The notes under the pieces are model-generated. The model was not told the origin of the DNA, made no database searches, and saw only the letters and a list, made by a program, of their open reading frames with translations. A program made the translations under genes and the position numbers. A DNA stretch of 38,190 nucleotides from a virus: positions 1 through 38,190 of the IMG/VR virus record IMGVR_UViG_3300019761_000003. One strand, 5' to 3'. Positions 5,633 to 15,417 of this stretch are shown here, piece after piece; position 1 is the first letter of the stretch, and each line of letters opens with the position of its first letter.

Positions 5633-5738
5633 TAATATAAATAAAATAAAGTGTCCTATTATTCTATTTGAAATGAATAAATTATATAGGGATTTAGAAA
5701 ATAAGCGATTGATTACGCCCGAAGGCAATTGTGTATGA
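5625..5738 (+). CDS. Hypothetical small protein, 37 aa
   Basis: Frame MSNNINKIKCPIILFEMNKLYRD... ending GNCV at 5738, starting eight bases before the previous stop (ATGAGTAA overlap). An in-frame ATG at 5592 would add 11 residues. No family recognised. Its stop overlaps the degenerate left end of the first attC-like site. It may be a real coupled gene or a decayed remnant. Confidence 0.35.
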   Translation: MSNNINKIKCPIILFEMNKLYRDLENKRLITPEGNCV

Positions 5739-5929
5739 ACGGTAAAGTATAAATGTAGTTGTGTGAATTTTAAAATTAATAATTATGATAAGCAAAAAAA
5801 AATTTAAGAAATTAGCAGATAAACACTTATTTGCATTGGAAAAGCCTAGAAATGCTTTTGGAAGAAATGAATTAGAAGTATTTGGCAAAGAAGAACTATA
5901 TAAACAATTACATTTATACAATGTTAGCC
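5734..5929 (+). repeat. attC-like site 1 (196 bp, ORF start in loop)
   Basis: Left core TATGAAC is degenerate; right core GTTAGCC 5923-5929. Arms GTATAAATGTAGTTGT (from 5747) and ACAATTACATTTATAC pair with one G.T wobble. The start of the 5785 gene lies in the loop and the ORF crosses the right core. Confidence 0.6.
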
Positions 5930-6039
5930 AACAAAGTGAACTGTTAAAGAGTTTTGCTGATTGGTTGCAAGGTGAAGTTTGGAATGATAAATACGATGAT
6001 TTTAGCGACTATGTTGAAGATTACATTGAAACTCTTTAA
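5785..6039 (+). CDS. Cassette protein 1, attC-spanning, unknown function
   Basis: An 84-residue protein of no recognised family. Its first 48 codons, ending LYNVS, lie in the loop and right arm of attC site 1; the remaining 36 codons (QQSELLKSFADWLQGEVWNDKYDDF and an acidic end) belong to the cassette body that closes at 6044. The C-terminal part is acidic and tryptophan-containing, probably helical. The crossing of a recombination point in frame means the N- and C-terminal parts could have separate origins. Leader before ATG is A/T-rich without a Shine-Dalgarno site. Confidence 0.55.
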   Translation: MISKKKFKKLADKHLFALEKPRNAFGRNELEVFGKEELYKQLHLYNVSQQSELLKSFADWLQGEVWNDKYDDFSDYVEDYIETL

Positions 6040-6043
6040 TTGT

Positions 6044-6238
6044 GGCTAACTTTACACGAATAAGATTAGAATAGATTAATTACAAAAAATATTATTATGA
6101 CTAAAGAACAAATATTAAAAGTATTAAATGATAAAAGCACTTACATTTTAGACTTTAAAGACATAACACATAATGCAATAGAGTTTGAGGATTTTAATGA
6201 TGTTGCAGATGCTATTTTAATTTTATTTGGAGTTAGCA
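6044..6238 (+). repeat. attC-like site 2 (195 bp, ORF start in loop)
   Basis: Cores GGCTAAC 6044-6050 and GTTAGCA 6232-6238. Arms AATAAGATTAGAATAG and CTATTTTAATTTTATT pair with two G.T wobbles. The left core pairs with GTTAGCC at 5923, closing cassette 1. Confidence 0.7.
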
Positions 6239-6345
6239 TTACCGAAGGGCAGTCTTGCAAATGTGGAAATAAAACGTTTACGCATAGGCACACAAATTGG
6301 ATAGAGTGTACTTCCTGTAATAGAATAAAAGTTTTGCAAGATTAA
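6097..6345 (+). CDS. Cassette protein 2, attC-spanning, C-terminal zinc ribbon
   Basis: An 82-residue protein. The first 47 codons (ending ILFGVS) are inside attC site 2 and are acidic and helical; the cassette part from residue 48 contains a zinc ribbon, CKCGNKTF...WIECTSCNRIKV, with two CxxC-type knuckles about 19 residues apart. Zinc ribbons of this kind bind nucleic acids or proteins. The stop TAA is immediately followed by TGCTAAC, the left core of site 3. Function unknown; the two halves may be a recombined pair. Confidence 0.6.
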   Translation: MTKEQILKVLNDKSTYILDFKDITHNAIEFEDFNDVADAILILFGVSITEGQSCKCGNKTFTHRHTNWIECTSCNRIKVLQD

Positions 6346-6469
6346 TGCTAACGTACTAGTGTATGAGCAGTAGTCTTACACGAACTTAGATAAATGAACA
6401 GAACTTTAAATTAATAACCAAGCGATAGTTAAAAGGCTGACGGACTATTGCTTATACACATTGTTAGCC
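6346..6469 (+). repeat. attC-like site 3 (124 bp)
   Basis: Cores TGCTAAC 6346-6352 and GTTAGCC 6463-6469. Arms 6360-6375 (TGTATGAGCAGTAGTC) and 6443-6458 (GACTATTGCTTATACA) pair over 16 bp with two G.T wobbles. No ORF in the roughly 67-base loop. A clear type example. Confidence 0.8.
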
Positions 6470-6481
6470 ACCGTTTTTATT

Positions 6482-6727
6482 ATGGAATTTACAAAATACA
6501 GAAGAACACAAATTGCTGAAATGCGACCTGTGACAAAAGAAGAAATTGAACTTGGTAGATTAATAGTTACCAAAACTAGAAGCCGAAAAGCAATTAGTGT
6601 TTCTGAGCCTGATTTACAAAATGGTTCTCCTAAAAGTGGCGATATGATTGCCCGAAACCCAAAGAACCACGATGACCAATGGTTAGTAGCTAAACAATAC
6701 TTTAAGGACAACTTTAAGCCACTTTAA
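6482..6727 (+). CDS. Conserved phage-type hypothetical protein in cassette 3
   Basis: From ATG 6482, 13 bases after the right core of site 3, an 81-residue protein. Its C-terminal half reads PKSGDMIARNPKNHDDQWL VAKQYF, a pattern I associate with small hypothetical proteins of many phages; the biochemical role is not known to me. No membrane segment. The stop is three bases before GTGGCTAAC, so the whole gene lies in one cassette in the classical integron layout. The longer frame to 6461 would start inside the attC site and is unlikely. Confidence 0.65.
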   Translation: MEFTKYRRTQIAEMRPVTKEEIELGRLIVTKTRSRKAISVSEPDLQNGSPKSGDMIARNPKNHDDQWLVAKQYFKDNFKPL

Positions 6728-6732
6728 ATGGT

Positions 6733-6867
6733 GGCTAACGGACTAGTATATGAAGCGTTGCATTATTAACAAATAAACACAGAATTATGAATACAGCAGA
6801 TTTTGAACATAAATTGAATGGAACTACGCCAATGCCAAAATGCAATGATTTATATACATTGTTAGGT
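6733..6867 (+). repeat. attC-like site 4 (135 bp, ORF start in loop)
   Basis: Cores GGCTAAC 6733-6739 and GTTAGGT 6861-6867. Arms GTATATGAAGCGTTGCAT and ATGCAATGATTTATATAC pair with wobbles and one mismatch. The 6787 gene begins in the loop. Confidence 0.75.
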
Positions 6868-7077
6868 GCAGTTAAGGTTAAAGACTATAAATGCCCTAAA
6901 TGCGGTAAATGGCATAATGATAATGACGAGCAATATGAAGTGAACAACGAGCAATACCCTAAATGCTTCAATGAAAGTAAAGGTGCTACTATGGATGGTA
7001 GTTATTGGGATTGGGATGAAGTGCATTGTTGCGAAGATTGTGGAACTAAATATTGGTTTAGTAATGGTGCGTACTAA
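6787..7077 (+). CDS. Cassette protein 4, zinc-binding, attC-spanning
   Basis: A 96-residue protein with a zinc-ribbon pair: YKCPKCGKWH (Cys about 38 and 41) and a late CCEDCGTKYWF knuckle (about 82-88) around an aromatic, acidic middle (MDGSYWDWDEVH). The first 25 or so codons lie in attC site 4 and the arm is translated as DLYTLLGA. The gene closes directly against TGCACCTAAC, which is the exact complement of the cassette opening GTTAGGTGCA. No enzyme family recognised; a structural zinc protein is likely. Confidence 0.65.
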   Translation: MNTADFEHKLNGTTPMPKCNDLYTLLGAVKVKDYKCPKCGKWHNDNDEQYEVNNEQYPKCFNESKGATMDGSYWDWDEVHCCEDCGTKYWFSNGAY

Positions 7078-7081
7078 TTGC

Positions 7082-7212
7082 ACCTAACGTTATATGTATA
7101 AGAATAGTAGCGGATAGAACGCACTAACCTTTCAGATTATGAGAAACAAAAAAGAAAACACTAACCAACAGATTAAGCACACAACCGCTATTATTTTTAT
7201 GCGGTGTTGTAC
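7082..7212 (+). repeat. attC-like site 5 (131 bp)
   Basis: Cores ACCTAAC 7082-7088 and GTTGTAC 7206-7212. Arms 7098-7113 (ATAAGAATAGTAGCGG) and 7185-7200 (CCGCTATTATTTTTAT) pair over 16 bp with two G.T wobbles at the standard positions. Confidence 0.8.
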
Positions 7213-7232
7213 ATCTGTTAAAAAATGAGTAT

Positions 7233-7844
7233 ATGTACAGAAGTAAGATAGAACTCCATAACGTTGATTGTTTGCCTTTTATGAAGCAATGCGAGGATAA
7301 ACAATTTGATTTGGCAATAGTTGACCCACCTTACGGAATAGGCATAAGCTCTAACCCTGTACGCCAACAACACGAAAAGAAAGGATGGGACAATGCAATA
7401 CCAAGTAAAGAATACTTTGATGAACTAAAGCGAATAAGTAAGAATCAAATTGTTTGGGGTGGTAATTATTTTTTGCAATACTTGGATAATACACAATGTT
7501 TCTTAATATGGGATAAAAAGCAACCATTTGACTTTAGCCTTGCAATGTGTGAAATGGCTTGGACTAGCTTTAGCAAACCTGCAAAGATTTTTACTCAAAG
7601 CGTATTAAAAGAAAGATGTAAAATACACCCAACGCAGAAACCAATTGAGCTTTATAAATGGTTGCTTACTCACTATGCAGAAAAGGGGCAAAAAATACTT
7701 GACACTCATTTGGGAGGTGGAAGCATTGCGATTGCTTGTGATGAACTTGGGTTTGATTTGACCGCTTGTGAAATTGATAAGGATTATTTTGATAAGGCAA
7801 ACAAAAGACTAAACCCTTATAGAAAGCAACAAAGCCTTTTTTAA
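7233..7844 (+). CDS. DNA adenine/N4-cytosine methyltransferase, beta class
   Basis: A 203-residue amino-methyltransferase of the N6_N4_Mtase family. Motif IV, DPPYGIG, is at residues 31-37 and precedes the AdoMet-binding motif I, LDTHLGGGSIAIA, near the C-terminus, the order of the beta class; HPTQKP before motif I is also typical. It methylates adenine N6 or cytosine N4 in DNA; target unknown. No restriction partner is adjacent, so it is probably a solitary enzyme protecting phage DNA. It fills cassette 5 exactly, between GTTGTACA at 7206 and TGTACAAC at 7848. The motif I phenylalanine is replaced (HLGGG instead of FxGxG). Confidence 0.85.
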   Translation: MYRSKIELHNVDCLPFMKQCEDKQFDLAIVDPPYGIGISSNPVRQQHEKKGWDNAIPSKEYFDELKRISKNQIVWGGNYFLQYLDNTQCFLIWDKKQPFDFSLAMCEMAWTSFSKPAKIFTQSVLKERCKIHPTQKPIELYKWLLTHYAEKGQKILDTHLGGGSIAIACDELGFDLTACEIDKDYFDKANKRLNPYRKQQSLF

Positions 7845-7848
7845 TTGT

Positions 7849-7912
7849 GTACAACGTTGAGCATATGATTTGACACGATTAAAAATAACGAACCTTTAAA
7901 TTAAACACGGAA
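7849..7912 (+). repeat. attC-like site 6, left half only
   Basis: Left core GTACAAC 7849-7855 and a typical left arm with GCATATGATTTGACACG are present, matching the opening of cassette 5. I could not find the matching right arm or a GTTRRRY core downstream, so the site appears truncated or rearranged; only the left portion is annotated. Confidence 0.5.
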
Positions 7913-8586
7913 TGAAAGCAAAAAACTTTAGAATAGGGAACCTTTATATTGACATAGACGACAATATATGTGAAATGTCTGGTTACGAACTTTGGCAAAT
8001 GTCTGTGAAGGAAAATAACGAAACGAACCAAGCAGCTAAAAGAATTTATACAAATATGAAATTAAGTAAGAAATGGGCAATGCCTAACGGAAATACATTT
8101 GAGATAAAACCGATTAAGGAATTTATACAGTTTTACAATTCTAGCAATTTGGAATCTGCTGACCCTTTTGCAAACCGTAACAGGATTGCCAAGTATGTTA
8201 ATGACCTAGACCCTGAAATGGGAACAGAATTTAATATGGATGCGATAGACTTCTTAAAAACCTTTGAAGATGAAAGTTTAGACCTAGTGTTTTTTGACCC
8301 ACCATACAGTCCTAGACAAGTAAGTGAATGCTATAAAAAACTTGGCAAGACTGTGAATATGCAAACGACACAAGCAAGTTTCTGGTCAAATATGAAAATA
8401 GAAATTGCTAGAATTTTAAAACCTAACGGAATAGCACTATGCTTTGGGTGGAACTCTCAAGGAATAGGTAAGACAAGAGGTTTTATTATGGAAGAAATTC
8501 TTTTAGTTGCGCACGGTGGACACCATAATGACACTATTTGCACAGCCGAAAGAAAAAGCACAGACCTTTTTAGTGCTTGTAGATAA
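7912..8586 (+). CDS. Phage-type DNA adenine methyltransferase
   Basis: A 224-residue protein with DPPYSPRQVSECYKK at residues 129-143, followed by a helix and the strand LKPNGIALCFGWNSQGIGK, a combination seen in small phage DNA adenine methyltransferases. A separate FxGxG motif I is not obvious, so AdoMet binding must use a divergent loop. The first 25 residues (MKAKNFRIGNLY) resemble the start of unrelated small Bacteroidetes phage proteins, hinting at an N-terminal fusion. The stop overlaps the core AGATAAC of site 7. Target unknown; protection against restriction is the likely role. Confidence 0.75.
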   Translation: MKAKNFRIGNLYIDIDDNICEMSGYELWQMSVKENNETNQAAKRIYTNMKLSKKWAMPNGNTFEIKPIKEFIQFYNSSNLESADPFANRNRIAKYVNDLDPEMGTEFNMDAIDFLKTFEDESLDLVFFDPPYSPRQVSECYKKLGKTVNMQTTQASFWSNMKIEIARILKPNGIALCFGWNSQGIGKTRGFIMEEILLVAHGGHHNDTICTAERKSTDLFSACR

Positions 8587-8711
8587 CGGCTATTGTATGA
8601 GTAGTAGCCGATTAGAAAGCACAAAGTATCGACTTAAAAATTAACTTAATAAATGGTAATAGCATTAAAAACAAGCACTACAACGGCTATTACTTATACA
8701 AATTGTTGTGG
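8581..8711 (+). repeat. attC-like site 7 (131 bp)
   Basis: Left core AGATAAC 8581-8587 departs from RYYYAAC; right core GTTGTGG 8705-8711. Arms 8595-8610 (GTATGAGTAGTAGCCG) and 8684-8699 (CGGCTATTACTTATAC) pair over 16 bp with two G.T wobbles. Confidence 0.8.
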
Positions 8712-8725
8712 TGCGTTATTTGATT

Positions 8726-8953
8726 ATGGAAGCAATAAAATTAGAATGTTCAAAAGGTTGGGTAAAAGTTGAAAGATTGATTGATGAAGATAAAGAAGCT
8801 GTAAAGTTGACTACAAATATTGATGACGAAGGAGAGCTTGGATTGACACTTTCTTATGATGAAATAGAAAAAGCAGATAAATCTTTTAAGAATTTATCGA
8901 ATCAAAATCCTGACGAGTTACAAGTAGCAATCCTTCAAATGTTAGGTCTTTAA
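8726..8953 (+). CDS. Hypothetical acidic protein, cassette 7
   Basis: From ATG 8726 a 75-residue acidic protein with no recognised family; the upstream GTG at 8708 is inside the attC core and unlikely. Sequence suggests a strand-rich start (AIKLECSKGWVKVERL) and a helical end. Start and stop both fall within the cassette bounded by GTTGTGGTGC at 8705 and GCACCACAAC at 8955, the classical layout. No membrane or metal-binding features. Confidence 0.6.
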   Translation: MEAIKLECSKGWVKVERLIDEDKEAVKLTTNIDDEGELGLTLSYDEIEKADKSFKNLSNQNPDELQVAILQMLGL

Positions 8954-8957
8954 TGCA

Positions 8958-9154
8958 CCACAACGAATTACGTATATGCTTAGTTGCGATTAATTAAACT
9001 TAAAATTTATAAAAAATGACAAATACTGAAATAAAAGTTAGATTAGAAAAAATATTATTTAGAAACGAACAAAGGACTGCAAATAAGCTAATACCTGCTG
9101 ACATACTTGATATAAAAGACATTATTAAGCGATTAAGTATATGCGATGTTGTGA
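8958..9154 (+). repeat. attC-like site 8 (197 bp, ORF start in loop)
   Basis: Cores CCACAAC 8958-8964 and GTTGTGA 9148-9154. Arms TATATGCTTAGTTGC and GCGATTAAGTATATG pair using two G.T and two T.G wobbles. Confidence 0.7.
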
Positions 9155-9300
9155 GTGGTAGCGTAGAAAAAGAACTATTGATTGCGGAGTTAGACGACAA
9201 AAGATGTATAGGTGTAGAAATGAACGAAGATATGTGGTATCTATGTCGTAAGGAAACAGCACAGCACTTATTAGATAATTACGAAATAAAATCTAAATAG
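9016..9300 (+). CDS. Cassette protein 8, attC-spanning, unknown
   Basis: A 94-residue protein without a recognised family. Residues 1-47, ending ICDVVS, are coded in attC site 8 and are helical and lysine-rich; the rest, starting GSVEKELLIAELDDKRC and ending acidic/basic, is coded in the cassette. The stop TAG lies seven bases before the closing core. The junction residues VS recur in other attC-spanning ORFs of the array. Confidence 0.55.
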   Translation: MTNTEIKVRLEKILFRNEQRTANKLIPADILDIKDIIKRLSICDVVSGSVEKELLIAELDDKRCIGVEMNEDMWYLCRKETAQHLLDNYEIKSK

Positions 9301-9307
9301 CTATTAC

Positions 9308-9724
9308 TTACAACTTTACAGTAATATGAAAAGTGCGATTAAAATAATATAAATTTATAAATTATACAAAATGAAAGATTATAATAAAATAGCCGAATAC
9401 CATAGATTAATGGAAACGGACAAATGGAGTAAAGAAATACCTGAAATAGCTTTTAAAAGTGATTGGAAGATTAAAATAACACCAGGCTTTGCTGGTGCGG
9501 TTGTAAGGTTTAGAGTTTACAAAGGCGATGCAGAAGTTAGTGTTTATTTAGATTGCTATGACCAATTAGGATGTTATGGAGAACCTTACTGGGAAGTTTA
9601 CCCACACGAAGATGACGTTTATAGATGTGATATGGCTAATGTTGATGCACTTTTAAAAGCTATTGAGCAAAGTATCACCGAACAATTAAACGAAAGTTAG
9701 CATTTTTTATATTACGAGTTAGTA
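9308..9724 (+). repeat. attC-like site 9 (417 bp) with a whole gene in its loop
   Basis: Cores TTACAAC 9308-9314 and GTTAGTA 9718-9724. Arms 9321-9336 (GTAATATGAAAAGTGC) and 9700-9715 (GCATTTTTTATATTAC) pair over 16 bp with two G.T wobbles at the same positions as in short sites. The 9371-9700 gene is enclosed, its stop codon touching the right arm. Confidence 0.7.
9371..9700 (+). CDS. Hypothetical protein enclosed in attC site 9
   Basis: A 109-residue protein, strand-rich in the middle (VVRFRVYKGDAEVSVYLDCYD) and with YWEVYPHEDDVYRC before a C-terminal helix. No family recognised, no signal or membrane segment. It is unusual in lying entirely between the two arms of an attC-like hairpin rather than in a cassette body. 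The ATG follows an A/T-rich leader with AAATTTATAAATTATAC, as for several neighbours. Confidence 0.65.
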   Translation: MKDYNKIAEYHRLMETDKWSKEIPEIAFKSDWKIKITPGFAGAVVRFRVYKGDAEVSVYLDCYDQLGCYGEPYWEVYPHEDDVYRCDMANVDALLKAIEQSITEQLNES

Positions 9725-9821
9725 GCTTTTTAGGAATGGTTTACACGACAAAAATAAATAATACAAATACTTAAAAGACTGAAATAAGTATCGTAAAAAT
9801 GCAAATCAAACCTAAATTGCA

Positions 9822-11029
9822 TACTAACTTTAGAGAGTATGGCAAGTAGAATGAAATTTAGAAGAATGCAAATTGGCGGTAGCCAAAATAACACGAAATT
9901 ATGAGTAAACACAAATTTAATTATGAATGGACTTTGAAAGATGCAAAGTTTACAAAAGACAAAGGGACTGTATTTAGTTGTTTTGCTTGCGGTGGTGGTT
10001 CTACAATGGGTTATAAACTTGCTGGATTTGATGTTATAGGAATGAATGAAATTGATGAAAGATTAGCAAAAGCATATATTAAAAATCACAATCCAAAATT
10101 CCCATTTATTGAAGATATAAGAACCTTTAAGGAACGTAAAGATTTACCAATAGAATTATACAATTTAGATATTTTAGATGGCTCGCCACCTTGCAGTAGT
10201 TTTAGTATGGCTGGAAATAGAGAAAAAGACTGGGGAAAAGAAAAATATTTTAGAGAAGGACAAGAATGTCAAGTTTTAGATACGTTATTTTTTGATTTTA
10301 TAGATTTAGCTAAAAAACTACAACCTAAAATTGTAGTAGCTGAAAATGTAAAAGGTATTTTGATGGGAGATGCTAAAGAATATGCTAAAAAAATACTTGA
10401 AGATTTTAACAAAGCTGGATATGTTGTGCAAGAATTTTTATTAAATAGTATGAGAATGGGTGTTCCACAAAAACGTGAACGTGTTTTTTTTATTGCTATT
10501 AGAAAAGATTTAGCGCTTAAATTACCACAAAATATTAGTGTAATGTTTAGTGAATATCCTTTATTAGATTTAGTTTTTTTTGAACCTATAATTAACTTTG
10601 GAAAAATAAAAGATGAAAATTATATTGATGAAGATTGTACAATGACAGATGTTAAATTAAAGATATGGAATAAAAGAGAATATGGGGATTTAGATTTTAG
10701 CTGTACTTTAGGGAGAACAGAAAATAGACCAAATAGTATGTTTAATAATAATTATATTTATGATAATAAAGTTATGAATACTATTACATCTAAAAAAAAC
10801 GATGTTTTAATGAGTGAACCAAGACATTGTAATTTTAATGAGAATATTAAATCTTCAACTTTTCCAAAAGATTATGATTTTTTAGGAATGCCTTATAGAT
10901 ATTTATTAGGGATGAGTGTTCCTCCGATAATGACAGCCCAAATTGCAAGTAGAATTTATACGCAATGGTTAAGTAATTAAAAAAGGGCAAAGGCAAATTT
11001 TATTTTATTTGCTATACGCATAGTTATTA
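9822..11029 (+). repeat. attC-like site 10 (1.2 kb) enclosing a methyltransferase gene
   Basis: Cores TACTAAC 9822-9828 (complement of GTTAGTA at 9718) and GTTATTA 11023-11029. Arms 9837-9859 and 10995-11017 pair over all 23 positions: 19 Watson-Crick and four G.T pairs. The loop holds the complete C5-methyltransferase gene. Confidence 0.7.
9901..10980 (+). CDS. DNA cytosine-C5 methyltransferase
   Basis: A 359-residue Dcm-type enzyme with motifs in canonical order: motif I VFSCFACGGGSTMGYKLAGF (residues 24-43), motif IV GSPPCSSF with catalytic Cys98, motif VI ENV at 148-150, motif VIII QKRERVFFIAI at 190-200, and motif X PPIMTAQIASRIY at the end. It transfers methyl to cytosine C5; recognition sequence unknown. 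No endonuclease is adjacent. The gene lies wholly inside the arms of attC site 10. It is more AT-rich than several other cassette genes, closer to phage composition. Confidence 0.9.
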   Translation: MSKHKFNYEWTLKDAKFTKDKGTVFSCFACGGGSTMGYKLAGFDVIGMNEIDERLAKAYIKNHNPKFPFIEDIRTFKERKDLPIELYNLDILDGSPPCSSFSMAGNREKDWGKEKYFREGQECQVLDTLFFDFIDLAKKLQPKIVVAENVKGILMGDAKEYAKKILEDFNKAGYVVQEFLLNSMRMGVPQKRERVFFIAIRKDLALKLPQNISVMFSEYPLLDLVFFEPIINFGKIKDENYIDEDCTMTDVKLKIWNKREYGDLDFSCTLGRTENRPNSMFNNNYIYDNKVMNTITSKKNDVLMSEPRHCNFNENIKSSTFPKDYDFLGMPYRYLLGMSVPPIMTAQIASRIYTQWLSN

Positions 11030-11123
11030 TTACGTTTTAGGGAAGTTTACGCTTTAATAATAGATTAGTAATAACTTTAGGTGAACATAAACTTTAAAAA
11101 CAGATAAAGACAGCTAAAATTAA

Positions 11124-11318
11124 TTATAACGGTACTCGTGTATGATTAGTTGCGTGAATTAATGACTTAAATAAATAAGCAATGAGTAAAAGATGTAAAC
11201 TTCAAAAAGAATACTATAAAGAATTTGGTAATTACAAAGGTATTGGAAAATACACAGACCATTATGTAAATTGGTTAGAAAGCAAGGTATTAGCAATTAA
11301 TTATACACGTTGTTATGT
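11124..11318 (+). repeat. attC-like site 11 (195 bp, ORF start in loop)
   Basis: Cores TTATAAC 11124-11130 (one mismatch to the complement of GTTATTA at 11023) and GTTATGT 11312-11318. Arms GTGTATGATTAGTTGC and GCAATTAATTATACAC pair over 16 bp with two G.T wobbles. The 11023-11130 segment before it codes for nothing I can see. Confidence 0.75.
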
Positions 11319-11436
11319 GAGCGAAGCTGAACAGTTTTTTTGTTTGGATAAAAAAGGAAAGCTAAGTAAACAATGTGAAAGCCAATGCAACGTATGTTTT
11401 AGATATGAGCGAAACAATAAAAAAAATTGCACATAA
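11182..11436 (+). CDS. Cassette protein 11, cysteine-rich end, attC-spanning
   Basis: An 84-residue protein. The first 47 codons, ending RCYVS, lie in attC site 11 and are basic and aromatic; the cassette part carries four cysteines in the pattern C-x12-C-x3-C-x2-C (CLDKKGKLSKQ, then CESQCNVCF) suggesting zinc binding. No family recognised. The stop overlaps the closing core ACATAAC. As for its relatives, halves may have been joined by cassette recombination. Confidence 0.55.
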   Translation: MSKRCKLQKEYYKEFGNYKGIGKYTDHYVNWLESKVLAINYTRCYVSEAEQFFCLDKKGKLSKQCESQCNVCFRYERNNKKNCT

Positions 11437-11560
11437 CTGAAAATTATATGATTTGTGCGTATAAGTAAGCACATCAACTTTGATTAAAAAAAGAATAAAT
11501 AAATAAGATATTAACAATTAAATAAGACCTAATTAGCATAAATTATATGAATAGTTAGGC
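11431..11560 (+). repeat. attC-like site 12 (130 bp)
   Basis: Cores ACATAAC 11431-11437 and GTTAGGC 11554-11560. Arms TTATATGATTTGTGC and GCATAAATTATATGA pair with wobbles. No ORF in the loop. Confidence 0.7.
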
Positions 11561-11572
11561 ACTTTTAAAATT

Positions 11573-11716
11573 ATGTATAAAGTAATAACAGGAAATGCAA
11601 AAGAAGTAGAAAGCCAACTAAACAAATTAAGAAATGACTGGTTTTTAAGTATTGAAGGAATGTCTGCAACAAATGAACAGACAACTGTATTGGTTGAAGT
11701 ATTAGGAAAGCAATAA
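11573..11716 (+). CDS. Small DUF1737/DUF4177-like protein, 47 aa
   Basis: MYKVITGNAKEVESQLNKLR followed by NDWFLSIEGMSATNEQTTVLVEVL. The form (a first strand, a helix, then a conserved W and G before a second strand) resembles the small DUF1737/DUF4177 proteins of unknown function. Start and stop are both inside the cassette GTTAGGCAC ... GTGCCTAAC, the classical layout, which supports its reality despite its size. Confidence 0.6.
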   Translation: MYKVITGNAKEVESQLNKLRNDWFLSIEGMSATNEQTTVLVEVLGKQ

Positions 11717-11726
11717 TTTTTATTGT

Positions 11727-11921
11727 GCCTAACTTTAGAGTGCATAATTAGTGCGATTAAATAAAAAATAAATTTATAGATTATGGAAACAATAACAATA
11801 AATATACACGAGTTAAATAAATTACTTCAAGAAAAAGTAAAAACAAATCCGTTTTTCACATACCATTTAAGTAAAGAATTACTTGAAGAAGTGAAAGCAT
11901 TAAATATGCACATAGTTAGCA
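11727..11921 (+). repeat. attC-like site 13 (195 bp, ORF start in loop)
   Basis: Cores GCCTAAC 11727-11733 and GTTAGCA 11915-11921. Arms GTGCATAATTAGTGC and GCATTAAATATGCAC pair over 15 positions with one wobble and one mismatch. Confidence 0.7.
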
Positions 11922-12082
11922 GACAGTTTAAGGACAAAGAAGCAAAAACTTTCATTGAATGGTATTTAAGTGAGGGATACATACCAACAGAAAGAACAGG
12001 AGTTTATAAAAATGGATGTAACATTGTGTTAGGTGAAGATTTGTATCTTAAATATACAGAAGCGATAAAAGTCAAACCTTAA
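11783..12082 (+). CDS. Cassette protein 13, attC-spanning, unknown
   Basis: A 99-residue protein with no recognised family. Residues 1-46 (ending NMHIVS) lie in attC site 13 and form a probable helical domain; the cassette part begins RQFKDKEAKTFIEWYLSEGY and looks alpha/beta. The gene ends five bases before the closing CTGCTAAC. No metal-binding or membrane features. Confidence 0.55.
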   Translation: METITINIHELNKLLQEKVKTNPFFTYHLSKELLEEVKALNMHIVSRQFKDKEAKTFIEWYLSEGYIPTERTGVYKNGCNIVLGEDLYLKYTEAIKVKP

Positions 12083-12087
12083 ATTAC

Positions 12088-12294
12088 TGCTAACGTATTA
12101 CGGGTATGAATAGTTGCGAGAATAAACACGAAAATTTATAAATATGGACATAATTAGAGAAACAGCAGACAAGTACCAACCGCTTTTTAATTTAATGAGC
12201 GAAGAACACGGATTGACACTTACTATTAGTGAAATGGACGATATAATTGCAAAAGTTGACGAAGTAAAGCAATTATTTATACCCATTGTTAGCA
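12088..12294 (+). repeat. attC-like site 14 (207 bp, ORF start in loop)
   Basis: Cores TGCTAAC 12088-12094 and GTTAGCA 12288-12294. Arms 12102-12117 (GGGTATGAATAGTTGC) and 12269-12284 (GCAATTATTTATACCC) pair over 16 bp with two G.T wobbles. Confidence 0.8.
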
Positions 12295-12482
12295 CTCGTA
12301 CTTTTGAAAAAGAGATTGAACTTTATGTAGATACTGATACTGATGAATGGGTGCTAAAGCATAAAGGCGTAATAAAAAAGAGAGCAAAGTCTAAATTTGA
12401 GTGCTTAGTTACCAAACAAGAAATAAAGAAACGATTAGGTGTATTAGTGCTAACGGACGAGTATATGAGTAGTGGCAGATAG
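12144..12482 (+). CDS. Cassette protein 14, two-site-spanning chimeric ORF
   Basis: A 112-residue frame. Residues 1-50 (ending FIPIVS) lie in attC site 14; the part HGLTLTISEMDDIIAKVDEV recalls small stand-alone Bacteroidetes proteins. The middle (FEKEIELYVDTDTDEWVLKHKG) comes from the cassette. The frame then runs through the left core of site 15 and ends inside its arm, so the last ten residues (LTDEYMSSGR) are coded by attC sequence. This layout suggests a chance fusion or a cassette trimmed at its end; the natural stop may have been lost. Confidence 0.5.
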   Translation: MDIIRETADKYQPLFNLMSEEHGLTLTISEMDDIIAKVDEVKQLFIPIVSTRTFEKEIELYVDTDTDEWVLKHKGVIKKRAKSKFECLVTKQEIKKRLGVLVLTDEYMSSGR

Positions 12483-12576
12483 AAAGCACCTACTTATAGG
12501 AAAGCAAAAAGTAAATAGATAAACAAAAATTAAGAATTAAACAATAACCTGCCATTACTTATATACATTGTTATAT
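12448..12576 (+). repeat. attC-like site 15 (129 bp)
   Basis: Cores TGCTAAC 12448-12454 and GTTATAT 12570-12576. Arms 12461-12478 and 12549-12566 pair over 18 bp (GTATATGAGTAGTGGCAG with CTGCCATTACTTATATAC) with two G.T wobbles; the longest clean stem of the short sites. Confidence 0.8.
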
Positions 12577-12606
12577 ACTGTATTGGCGACTTAAAAAGCA
12601 CGAACC

Positions 12607-13161
12607 TTGAAAAAATACGAAATAATTTATGCAGATCCAGCTTGGCAATACAAAACAAAAGAAAGCCTTGCTAAAAAGAGTATATTAAATGGCAAGATAA
12701 ACAGCCATTATGGAACGATGACTATTGCCGAGCTTGAGCGTTTGCCTATGGATAGCATTTCAGATAAAAATTGTATGTTATTTATGTGGGTTGTAAGCCC
12801 TATGTTAGATGATGGTATAGACTTAATGAAAAAATGGGGTTTTAAATACAGCACAATAGCTTTTATATGGCACAAACAAAGAACAAACCCTGGACATTAT
12901 ACAATGAGTGAATGTGAAATATGTATAGTTGGCAGACGAGGTAAAATACCAACTCCAAGAGGTGCAAGGAATGTTCGACAATTTTTATCTGAAATGCGTG
13001 GAAAGCACTCTGCAAAACCTAATGAAATAAGAAAGCGAATAGAATTGATGTTTCCAACACAAAGTAAATTAGAAATGTTTGCAAGGCAGAGTGCCGAGGG
13101 TTGGGATGTGTGGGGAAATGAAGTTGAGGATAGCATAGACCTAAGCCAATATTGTATATAA
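12607..13161 (+). CDS. MT-A70 family adenine methyltransferase
   Basis: A 184-residue protein of the MT-A70 type, with the catalytic motif DPAW at residues 10-13 (usual form DPPW), then HYGTMTIAELERLP, a strand MLFMWVVSP and the helix that follows, all typical of phage and bacterial MT-A70 proteins that methylate adenine N6 in DNA. The start is TTG at 12607; no in-frame ATG precedes the catalytic motif. It fills the cassette GTTATATAC ... GTATATAAC. A third adenine-type methyltransferase in one array points to DNA protection. Confidence 0.85.
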   Translation: MKKYEIIYADPAWQYKTKESLAKKSILNGKINSHYGTMTIAELERLPMDSISDKNCMLFMWVVSPMLDDGIDLMKKWGFKYSTIAFIWHKQRTNPGHYTMSECEICIVGRRGKIPTPRGARNVRQFLSEMRGKHSAKPNEIRKRIELMFPTQSKLEMFARQSAEGWDVWGNEVEDSIDLSQYCI

Positions 13162-13225
13162 CGAAATGAATATGCGGCGGCTTGTGTTGCGCCTGCGGCA
13201 AGCTGACATATATTCGGTGTTACCA
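13156..13225 (+). repeat. attC-like site 16 (70 bp, compact form)
   Basis: Cores ATATAAC 13156-13162 and GTTACCA 13219-13225. GAATATG and GGCGGCTTG on the left face CAAGC and CATATATTC on the right around a GC-rich loop, giving a short classical attC-like hairpin unlike the AT-rich long sites. Confidence 0.65.
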
Positions 13226-13287
13226 ACTGGCGGTTTATGCAGGCGTTTATTAAATGAACAGAAGTAATAATTAAAAATAGCGAAGCG

Positions 13288-14226
13288 ATGGCAAAAAAAG
13301 AATTTAAAAAGTACCAGCACATTGAAAGATTTGGCACTACAGAAGTGCAAAACATTGAATTAGGAGAATGTTATATTTTCCCGAAAGTTGACGGAACAAA
13401 TGCAAGTATATGGCTTGACGAAAATGGAGAGCTGCAAGCAGGTAGCCGCAAGAGGCATTTAAGTATTGACGATGATAATGCAGGTTTTTGTAAGTGGGCT
13501 AAAGAACAATCTAACTTGCTTGCTTACTTGCAGGAAAACCCAACACATAGATTGTTTGGAGAATGGCTTGTGCCGCATAGTTTGAAAACTTACCGTGAAG
13601 ATGCTTGGAGGCACTTTTATGTATTTGATATTGCTTTAGATAAAGACGAAAGTGATATTAAGAACGAAGGAGATAGCCAGCATAAATACTTGCATTACCA
13701 CGAATACAAGCCTTTACTTGAAAAACACAACATTGATTACATACCACCTTTGGCAATTATTGAACGTGCCAGTTATGAGCAGTTTATTAGCCAACTTGAA
13801 AAGAATGTGTTTTTAATTGAGGACGGCAAAGGAGCAGGAGAAGGTATTGTAATTAAGAACTACGACTTTTTTAACCGGTATGGGCGACAAACTTGGGCTA
13901 AAATTGTAACCTCTGAATTTAAGGAAAAACACAGTAAAACAATGGGAGCACCAAAAGTTGAAGGCAAAAAGATGGTTGAAGAAGAGATTGCAAAAAAGTA
14001 TGTAACTACTGCCTTGTGTGAGAAAGTAAAAGCTAAAATTGAACTAGATAACGATGGATTTAGCAGTAAGCAGATACCAAGGCTTTTAAATACCGTTTAC
14101 TATGATGTGGTAAAAGAAGAAAGCTGGAATTTTGTAAAAGAGTTTAAAAACCCAACGATTAATTATAAGACATTACAGCATTTTATTTTTGCACAGGTGA
14201 AAGTATGTGTCCCGATGTTATTCTAA
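13288..14226 (+). CDS. RNA ligase, T4 Rnl2-like nucleotidyltransferase family
   Basis: A 312-residue protein of the RNA_ligase family. Motif I is KVDG at residues 33-36 (nucleotidyl acceptor Lys33), motif III HFYVFDI around residue 110, motif IV EGIVIKNY around 186-193 and motif V WAKIV around 205. It seals 3'-OH/5'-phosphate RNA ends via an AMP intermediate, and phages use such enzymes to repair tRNAs cut by host anticodon nucleases. It sits alone in the last cassette, bounded by GTTACCAAC and GTTGGTAAC. Local GC is about 43 percent in a sampled line, versus about 27 percent in the primase gene, so acquisition by transfer is likely. Confidence 0.85.
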   Translation: MAKKEFKKYQHIERFGTTEVQNIELGECYIFPKVDGTNASIWLDENGELQAGSRKRHLSIDDDNAGFCKWAKEQSNLLAYLQENPTHRLFGEWLVPHSLKTYREDAWRHFYVFDIALDKDESDIKNEGDSQHKYLHYHEYKPLLEKHNIDYIPPLAIIERASYEQFISQLEKNVFLIEDGKGAGEGIVIKNYDFFNRYGRQTWAKIVTSEFKEKHSKTMGAPKVEGKKMVEEEIAKKYVTTALCEKVKAKIELDNDGFSSKQIPRLLNTVYYDVVKEESWNFVKEFKNPTINYKTLQHFIFAQVKVCVPMLF

Positions 14227-14376
14227 TCGGTTTGAAAAACCGAAAGCGGGGAGGGCTATTTTTAATTATGGTCAAATTTGCAGAACCCTTGATTAAATGC
14301 ACTGCCTTTCTTCCGCTTGTTGGTAACTATGGATAACATTAACAATTAATGTATTTATTAATTTAAAATACTGATT

Positions 14377-14643
14377 ATGAATAGATATATGTACATATAT
14401 TCAAAGTACAGATTTAGAGGATTGCCATTATTGGTATTGTCTGATAATAACAAATTCTACAGACTTCCATTTAATAAAAATAAAAAATACTATGATATAA
14501 AAGAATTAAAAGTTCATTATCATCAAGGGCAAAATAAATTATTATATAATGGTAAAAGATATACTAAAAAGAAATTAAATGAATTAAAATATAAACATAA
14601 GGAACTCATAAAAACAGATATAAATAAATTTTATTTGCCTTAA
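14377..14643 (+). CDS. Hypothetical basic protein, 88 aa
   Basis: First gene after the cassette array; 88 residues, very rich in lysine and tyrosine, ending KFYLP. No recognised family. The alternation of strands (GLPLLVLSDNNKFYRLPF) and a basic helix suggests a small nucleic-acid-binding protein. AT-rich codon use matches the phage backbone rather than the array. Confidence 0.55.
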   Translation: MNRYMYIYSKYRFRGLPLLVLSDNNKFYRLPFNKNKKYYDIKELKVHYHQGQNKLLYNGKRYTKKKLNELKYKHKELIKTDINKFYLP

Positions 14644-14736: not shown

Positions 14737-15417
14737 ATGTCTAGATTAAACAGACCTACAGCAAAAAGTGAAAATCCAACTACTAAATTTTTAAGTTGGA
14801 AATCTTCAAAGAACTCTTTTTCTTATTATGACAAAGAAAAAGAAGATAATATTGTCATTAAATTACCTCTTAAAATAGCATTCTTAGAGCATTATCATAC
14901 AATTAAAGGCTTTCATAATAAAAGTGAAAGTGGCATCTTCTCAAATGAAGTATTTAGTATTGCAAATGAAGAATTAAATGTAAGGTCATTTAAAGGGGGG
15001 AAGATAGACAGTGGTTTATATAAGGATATAAAGCATAATGTTAAAGATAATGGAGGTATCTACCATAGGTCTATATATTGTGTAGATACTAATTATAATT
15101 TAATAAATTTATCTTTTAAAGGTAGCGTTGTATCAGCTTATTCTGATTTTTGTAAAGAGAATAGTAATAAATTTGAGCAAAAATGGATTGAAATAACTGA
15201 TTTTGTTAAAAAAACTAAAGGAGCAACAAAATATACTGTTCCAATATTTAAGATTGGAGATAACTTTACTAAAGAGGAAGATAATAAAATTGTTGAAGTT
15301 GCAAGTATTTTGCAAAAATATATGGATAGTTATTTAGATAATTCTATTGATAATTCTAAATCAAAAGAATATCTAAATAATATAGAGGTAAAAGATGAAG
15401 AAGAAGCACCATTCTAA
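14737..15417 (+). CDS. Single-stranded DNA-binding protein (putative)
   Basis: A 226-residue protein with a strand-rich body and a very acidic tail ending DEEEAPF. That end mimics the conserved acidic tip of bacterial SSB proteins (DDDIPF type), which recruits replication and repair partners. Position before the primase-helicase supports a role coating single-stranded DNA at replication forks. Core similarity to known phage SSBs is not certain from sequence reading; the acidic tip is the main evidence. Confidence 0.6.
   Translation: MSRLNRPTAKSENPTTKFLSWKSSKNSFSYYDKEKEDNIVIKLPLKIAFLEHYHTIKGFHNKSESGIFSNEVFSIANEELNVRSFKGGKIDSGLYKDIKHNVKDNGGIYHRSIYCVDTNYNLINLSFKGSVVSAYSDFCKENSNKFEQKWIEITDFVKKTKGATKYTVPIFKIGDNFTKEEDNKIVEVASILQKYMDSYLDNSIDNSKSKEYLNNIEVKDEEEAPF

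Follow-up and report, generated by a model that had tools for sequence, protein, structure and literature searches.

A phage-borne array of integron-type cassettes whose genes run against their attC sites, and a candidate recombinase in the chromosomes of Flavobacteriaceae

Canonical chromosomal integrons, such as those of Vibrio, comprise an IntI integrase, an attI site and long arrays of attC-bearing cassettes that adjoin the tyrosine recombinase; their attCs are folded single-strand sites with RYYYAAC and GTTRRRY cores, and the two ends of each cassette match one another. In the 'reverse integrons' of Treponema gene and attC point the same way, the stop codon being located at the R'' core (PMC3607928, PMC7691350). 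Closest to the present case, Qi et al. (2023, PMC9892861) describe 17 clusters of cassettes without an integrase (CALINs) in phages, including Polaribacter phage P12002L, with few attCs per phage, DNA methyltransferases among the cargo and 'divergent directions' noted in P12002L. Here we describe an array of this general kind in a window of 38,190 bases, the whole of IMG/VR record IMGVR_UViG_3300019761_000003, which is classed as linear and is thus possibly a fragment. The array consists of 16 attC-like sites, from 5734 to 13225, and a terminal core at 14321-14327; it shares cores, folded sites and matching cassette ends with canonical integrons.

We judge it probable (about 0.82) that these are integron cassettes which form an integrase-less cluster in a Flavobacteria phage and are moved in trans by a recombinase of the host. 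The case is carried by the sites themselves, by the site family that they share with chromosomal arrays, by the linkage of those arrays to an integrase, by the polarity of gene and attC, and by the exact gain and loss of units in viral contigs. An earlier reading made from the letters of the window alone (the sequence-only reading) had proposed a phage-borne cassette array of integron type, had counted 16 attC-like sites and had seen no integron integrase; the present analysis supports all three, with no match in the window to the host-type recombinase described below. It had named very few reports of cassette arrays in phages as known, and none with this arm consensus; 17 phage CALINs had in fact been reported, of which the one in the Polaribacter phage has this site family.

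In each attC two complementary arms enclose a loop of about 10 to 360 nucleotides (nt); spacers set the arms apart from the cores, one of about 6 nt next to RYYYAAC and one of about 3 nt next to GTTRRRY. The body between successive sites opens with GTT... and closes with ...AAC, and these own ends are exactly complementary over at least 7 bases in 14 of the 16 bodies (at least 8 bases in 12, exactly 7 in the two at 9718/9828 and 10010/11130). One further body, 9148/9314, shows a single mismatch by eye, and for the degenerate one opening near 7982 and closing at 8587 no matching opening was found. The sequence-only reading had given 13 exact and two near matches among 15 and had held the rule to be hard to obtain by chance, a view that is borne out: an automatic scan of 5700-14400 recovered 9 own-end pairs of at least 8 bases, where 300 dinucleotide shuffles averaged 0.02 and never exceeded 1, and 10 strong stems against a shuffle mean of 0.1. 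Two positions of the stem are fixed wobbles, which on the gene-sense strand read G.T and on its complement C.A. Across the window and all arrays collected, attC lengths fall into discrete classes of about 38-42, 50, 82, 117, 182-190 and 210-220 nt; a 35-nt ladder of these lengths was considered and set aside, the classes being real and the periodicity unconvincing.

The sites belong to a family that extends well beyond the window. A search with the second-arm pattern returned 85 viral contigs, many of them with arrays, and the own-end scan of about 130 viral contigs, P12002L included, gave 342 pairs (both strands) against 12 in shuffled sequence. Among bacterial genomes the pattern matched almost only Flavobacteriaceae, with arrays in 72 of the 118 stretches. 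A covariance model built solely from 45 chromosomal attCs matches window sites at E-values of 1e-12 to 3e-5, within the array and on the minus strand, opposite to the genes; its plus-strand matches in the window are two, both weak and outside the array (E 0.64 and 0.95), and nine array-free relatives yield one weak match in total. Nearly all matches in the other viral arrays likewise lie on the strand opposite to the genes, and chromosomal arrays are matched on the gene-sense strand. The window sites and those of the long chromosomal arrays of Flavobacteriaceae form one attC family, of which P12002L also carries members. The sequence-only reading had proposed as its test whether a covariance model leads to Bacteroidota arrays next to integrases, and the model does tie the sites to such arrays, adjoining an integrase-like recombinase.

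Gene direction separates the viral from the chromosomal arrays. In chromosomes the gene is co-oriented with its attC, ending just before it, in 308 of 318 scorable units (10 opposed); in viral arrays gene and attC are opposed in 91 of 93 (2 co-oriented), and among viral open reading frames (ORFs) of at least 80 amino acids the ratio of co-oriented to opposed is 0:64. The co-orientation typical of integrons is absent from viral arrays, and the inverted phage units differ in this from the Treponema arrangement as well. Of the two strands, the gene-sense one folds better at 13 of 13 window sites, and the gene-antisense one at 286 of 307 chromosomal sites; the corresponding viral count, 95 of 95, is partly circular, the units having been pre-sorted by the same wobbles. 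Read on the minus strand, the window would hold ordinary attC sites with inverted genes. The recombining strand would be the gene-sense one, folding to the attC hairpin with its two fixed G.T pairs and being cut at RYYYAA|C.

A better hairpin on the gene-sense strand, together with genes that begin in or just after it, would also suit RNA elements (5' leader hairpins, or else terminators) that serve a fixed phage operon and are mobile only incidentally. We consider this very improbable: the window repeats match no Rfam family and no tRNA, the sites are absent from most relatives, an RNA hairpin has no need of own-end complementarity, and exact gain and loss of units is seen. The sequence-only reading had itself named two patterns that would count against it, the same genes fixed in related phages without the repeats and a non-mobile RNA family. 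Neither was found: most relatives have no array at this place, and the repeats lie at variable gene junctions where cassettes are precisely gained and lost.

The own-end rule is identical for both possible crossover points and cannot choose between them, so a homology comparison was used. The segments from GTT to AAC, which the sequence-only reading had taken as the gene units, do not serve as such, about half of the ORFs starting inside an attC and crossing the GTT core. Many window ORFs have their start in the loop, some 50 nt past the AAC core, and extend through the second arm and the GTT core (among them 6097-6345, 11783-12082 and 12144-12482), and core-spanning ORFs occur in 46 of 99 viral units. 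These counts would fit units that run from GTT core to GTT core in gene orientation, the core-crossing ORFs being shuffled, exon-like halves. The homology boundaries oppose this. Seven viral homology blocks begin at the R'' core and extend into the gene, and none has the mirrored layout; positions 11126-11437 of the window are 95% identical to one R''-to-R'' unit of viral contig L073, with no identity beyond; and where cassettes are shared, viral arrays conserve the attC that precedes and not the one that follows (2:0), and chromosomes the one that follows and not the one that precedes (19:0). For chromosomes this whole-cassette comparison replaced the raw count of block boundaries, which is uninformative there (151 vs 222) because the attCs are too alike.

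Two exact events of gain or loss also break at R'' and leave the ORFs whole. Exactly one unit of 280 bp, which holds a complete ORF of 91 amino acids, sets the 99%-identical contigs L082 and L100 apart, the junction reading TGATTTAAC[GGAATGAG...GTGGCTAAC]TTATATGG in the one and TGATTTAACTTATATGG in the other; a comparison of L106 with L080 and L126 shows an insert of 648 bp that comprises two units and has ends of this kind too. The shuffling of split genes at the GTT core is rejected on these boundaries together with those of homology blocks and shared cassettes, and a GTT-to-GTT unit, which is also opposed by an attC polarity opposite to the canonical one, has in our estimate hardly any chance of being correct. 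These are precise gains or losses of cassettes in phages, with the genes kept intact. From the same comparisons, the mobile unit extends from one R'' core (RYYYAA|C) to the next, comprising one whole gene with an attC in front; cassettes would be cut as units at G|TTRRRY of the canonical strand, with gain or loss proceeding by one unit or by two.

Phages recombine readily, and the cores flanking the L082/L100 junction share four bases (TAAC), which leaves room for repeat-mediated homologous recombination or replication slippage, with no site-specific recombinase, as the way in which the units move. We regard this as improbable, since the junction shares those four bases only and the neighbouring attC loops are strongly different, core-specific cutting is what produces the own-end match, and host arrays with the same sites adjoin a recombinase.

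In genomes selected for their arrays a tyrosine recombinase gene heads the array in 10 of 10 (one copy broken). An alignment of this integrase, searched in 121 genomes of the family, gave some match at E below 1e-40 in 120, and a full-length recombinase with an N-terminal extension is present in roughly 75 of them (counted by eye). At loci chosen regardless of arrays, an array lies directly downstream of the recombinase in 16 of 20, and at two of the four array-less loci the contig ends within about 1-2 kb; XerC/D-like control loci have an array in 0 of 20. The catalytic residues R..K..HxxR..H..Y are present, with R240, K268, H329, R332, H355 and Y364 invariant in alignment A1, and the nearest family is XerA-like (NCBIfam NF040815; PDB sequences 4a8e and 5hxy). 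The protein is thus closest to XerA and XerC/D, and it differs from them in its fixed linkage to cassette arrays, which plain XerC/D-like loci lack, and in the N-terminal extension, about 105 extra residues without a Pfam match. From canonical chromosomal integrons the host system departs in that the recombinase is transcribed toward the array and, by alignment, appears to lack the IntI-specific extra domain near the C-terminus: 20 query residues stand against 63 chain residues of VchIntIA (2a3v), about 43 being absent. The IntI model TIGR02249 scores 179-211 bits against a cut-off of 265.

The arrays of the chromosomal loci L261-L270 and L277-L296 adjoin such XerA-like recombinases; integron-like arrays of this kind are common in Flavobacteriaceae and apparently unrecognised. 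Directly after the integrase stop in L262, L263, L265 and L269 there is an ATATAACnnGTTRRRY-like sequence, a candidate attI that resembles a simple Xer site. In L261 consecutive cassettes are exactly duplicated (7124-8646 and 12691-14211), with junctions at the canonical core, which indicates recent recombination.

The cassettes might alternatively be genuine and yet be moved by a canonical IntI of other bacteria or of plasmids. In this direction points the recombination of an attC of P12002L, perhaps one of those found here, by IntI1 in E. coli (PMC9892861), a result that is at the same time supportive of functional attCs in a phage with arrays of this site family. None of the 19 array-bearing host genomes tested passes the IntI family cut-off, however, and with the XerA-like gene at the array in every one of the 10 genomes inspected we think a canonical IntI an improbable mover. 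The recombinase most likely comes from the cell: the host-type enzyme has no match in the window or in 46 of 47 other array-bearing viral records, some of which are fragments; the remaining one, a 162-kb record (of L056), carries a partial host-type tyrosine recombinase (G034:C1:143501-144058). A complete integron, with intI and attI adjoining the array, is not present in the window, and the integrase is found in host chromosomes. The trans-acting enzyme would most likely be the XerA-like tyrosine recombinase that heads the Flavobacteriaceae arrays of the same family.

Several observations weigh against the array being moved in this way. The extrahelical bases by which canonical integrons choose the strand are not seen, neither arm having a constant bulge; in their place the sites have the two fixed G.T/A.C positions and unequal spacers of 6 and 3 nt. 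Of the window sites, number 6 is degenerate and three others (9, 10 and 12) are weak. An empty site predicted by joining the window flanks gave no match in IMG/VR. Finally, recombination by the host enzyme is a prediction from sequence.

Since the units of an array all have to share a single attC polarity, those of the phage are uniformly oriented and all read in the direction of phage transcription. A unit that crossed from the host pool to that of the phage, or back, would come to lie antisense; the resulting separation of host and phage expression is a consequence of the inversion, not its proven cause. Consistent with two separate cassette pools, host and phage, homologues in the sampled chromosomal arrays, even distant ones, exist for only 9 of 126 viral cassette proteins. 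We lean, by a narrow measure, towards the wider proposition that Flavobacteriaceae possess a widespread integron family with a XerA-type integrase devoid of the IntI domain, which may have come independently to the recombination of folded single-strand sites, and that their phages keep a separate, mirror-image pool whose genes face against the attC, with the effect that neither host nor phage cassettes could be expressed in the arrays of the other.

Phage cassette arrays as such are already known (PMC9892861). The sections of that article drawn on here give no account of systematic gene inversion, of an R''-to-R'' unit, of unit gain and loss or of a link to Flavobacteriaceae arrays. No report of either the inverted pool or the Flavobacteriaceae integron family was found in the open-access literature searched, though reports elsewhere are possible. 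The host family was probably overlooked by scans for the IntI domain, because IntegronFinder 2.0 takes the extra domain as the mark of IntI and reports only the Salinibacter integron in Bacteroidetes proper (PMC9024848); being without that domain, this large family would be expected to escape standard detection. If the interpretation is true, phages of a very common marine bacterial group swap anti-defence genes by cassette with an enzyme borrowed from the host. Two questions become testable: whether the IntI extra domain is needed for recombination of folded attCs, and whether cassette gene direction separates phage from host.

The window also carries genes for a terminase, a portal protein, a major head protein, a primase and a helicase. 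The phage host is very likely a member of the Flavobacteria, because the terminase DNA is 65% identical to that of Flavobacterium psychrophilum phages. A search for relatives through the flanking gene at 14737-15417 gave none; the window primase gave 44, most of them without arrays. In five phages with a window-type primase (L008, L014, L019, L021 and L036) the arrays are placed differently relative to the primase, which suggests that arrays have landed repeatedly and independently.

All 16 sites lie on the minus strand, their lengths being counted between AAC and GTT. The left-most, at 5734-5929, has a degenerate core TATGAAC (5734-5740), pairing arms at 5747-5768 and 5898-5919 and a GTTAGCC core at 5923, with ORF 5785-6039 beginning in its loop. 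Sites 2 (6044-6238, 181 nt), 4 (6733-6867, 121 nt), 8 (8958-9154, 183 nt, 20 bits), 11 (11124-11318, 181 nt), 13 (11727-11921, 181 nt) and 14 (12088-12294, 193 nt, 30.5 bits, E 3.3e-5) similarly contain in their loops the starts of ORFs 6097-6345, 6787-7077, 9016-9300, 11182-11436, 11783-12082 and 12144-12482, respectively. The best covariance matches are those of site 15 (12448-12576, 115 nt; 63.9 bits, E 1.3e-12), site 5 (7082-7212, 117 nt; 58 bits, E 2.6e-11) and site 7 (8581-8711, 117 nt; 57.7 bits, E 2.9e-11); sites 3 (6346-6469) and 12 (11431-11560) measure 110 and 116 nt, and site 16 (13156-13225) measures 56 nt (19.1 bits, E 0.012). The left core of the degenerate site 6 (7849-7988; weak stem, 7.2 bits, E=5) pairs with the 7206 opening over 8 bases. 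Site 9 (9308-9724) has a stem of 9321-9336 with 9700-9715 and a very long loop of about 400 nt that encloses the complete ORF 9371-9700. Site 10 (9822-10016, 181 nt) has a weak stem, and the C5 methyltransferase ORF begins in its loop; its own end 10010/11130 is the exact match over 7 bases given above. The terminal core of the last unit, TGGTAAC at 14321-14327 (minus strand), pairs with 13219 over 9 bases, and with no stem after it marks the array end.

The cassette genes are all on the plus strand. They encode an N6/N4 DNA methyltransferase (7233-7844; PF01555, E 1.8e-14), a methyltransferase-like protein with a weak Cons_hypoth95/D12 match (7912-8586), a C5 cytosine methyltransferase (9901-10980; PF00145, E 6.4e-47), an MT-A70 methyltransferase (12607-13161; PF05063, E 1.1e-23), an RNA ligase (13288-14226; PF09414, E 2.1e-20) and about eleven small unknown proteins. 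Of the latter, the four at 5785-6039, 6097-6345, 6482-6727 and 6787-7077 and those at 11182-11436, 11573-11716, 11783-12082 and 12144-12482 have no Pfam match, and those at 8726-8953, 9016-9300 and 9371-9700 no strong one. Methyltransferase families are matched by roughly one third of the 51 larger viral cassette proteins, a figure in which families may overlap. The cargo is naturally read as giving protection from restriction, and the methyltransferases together with the small proteins suggest a swappable kit for anti-restriction or host takeover. Among ORFs that begin within an attC (5785-12482), translation of the second arm and core produces recurring peptides, such as AINYT.. and EQLTLTDVS, in otherwise unrelated small proteins.

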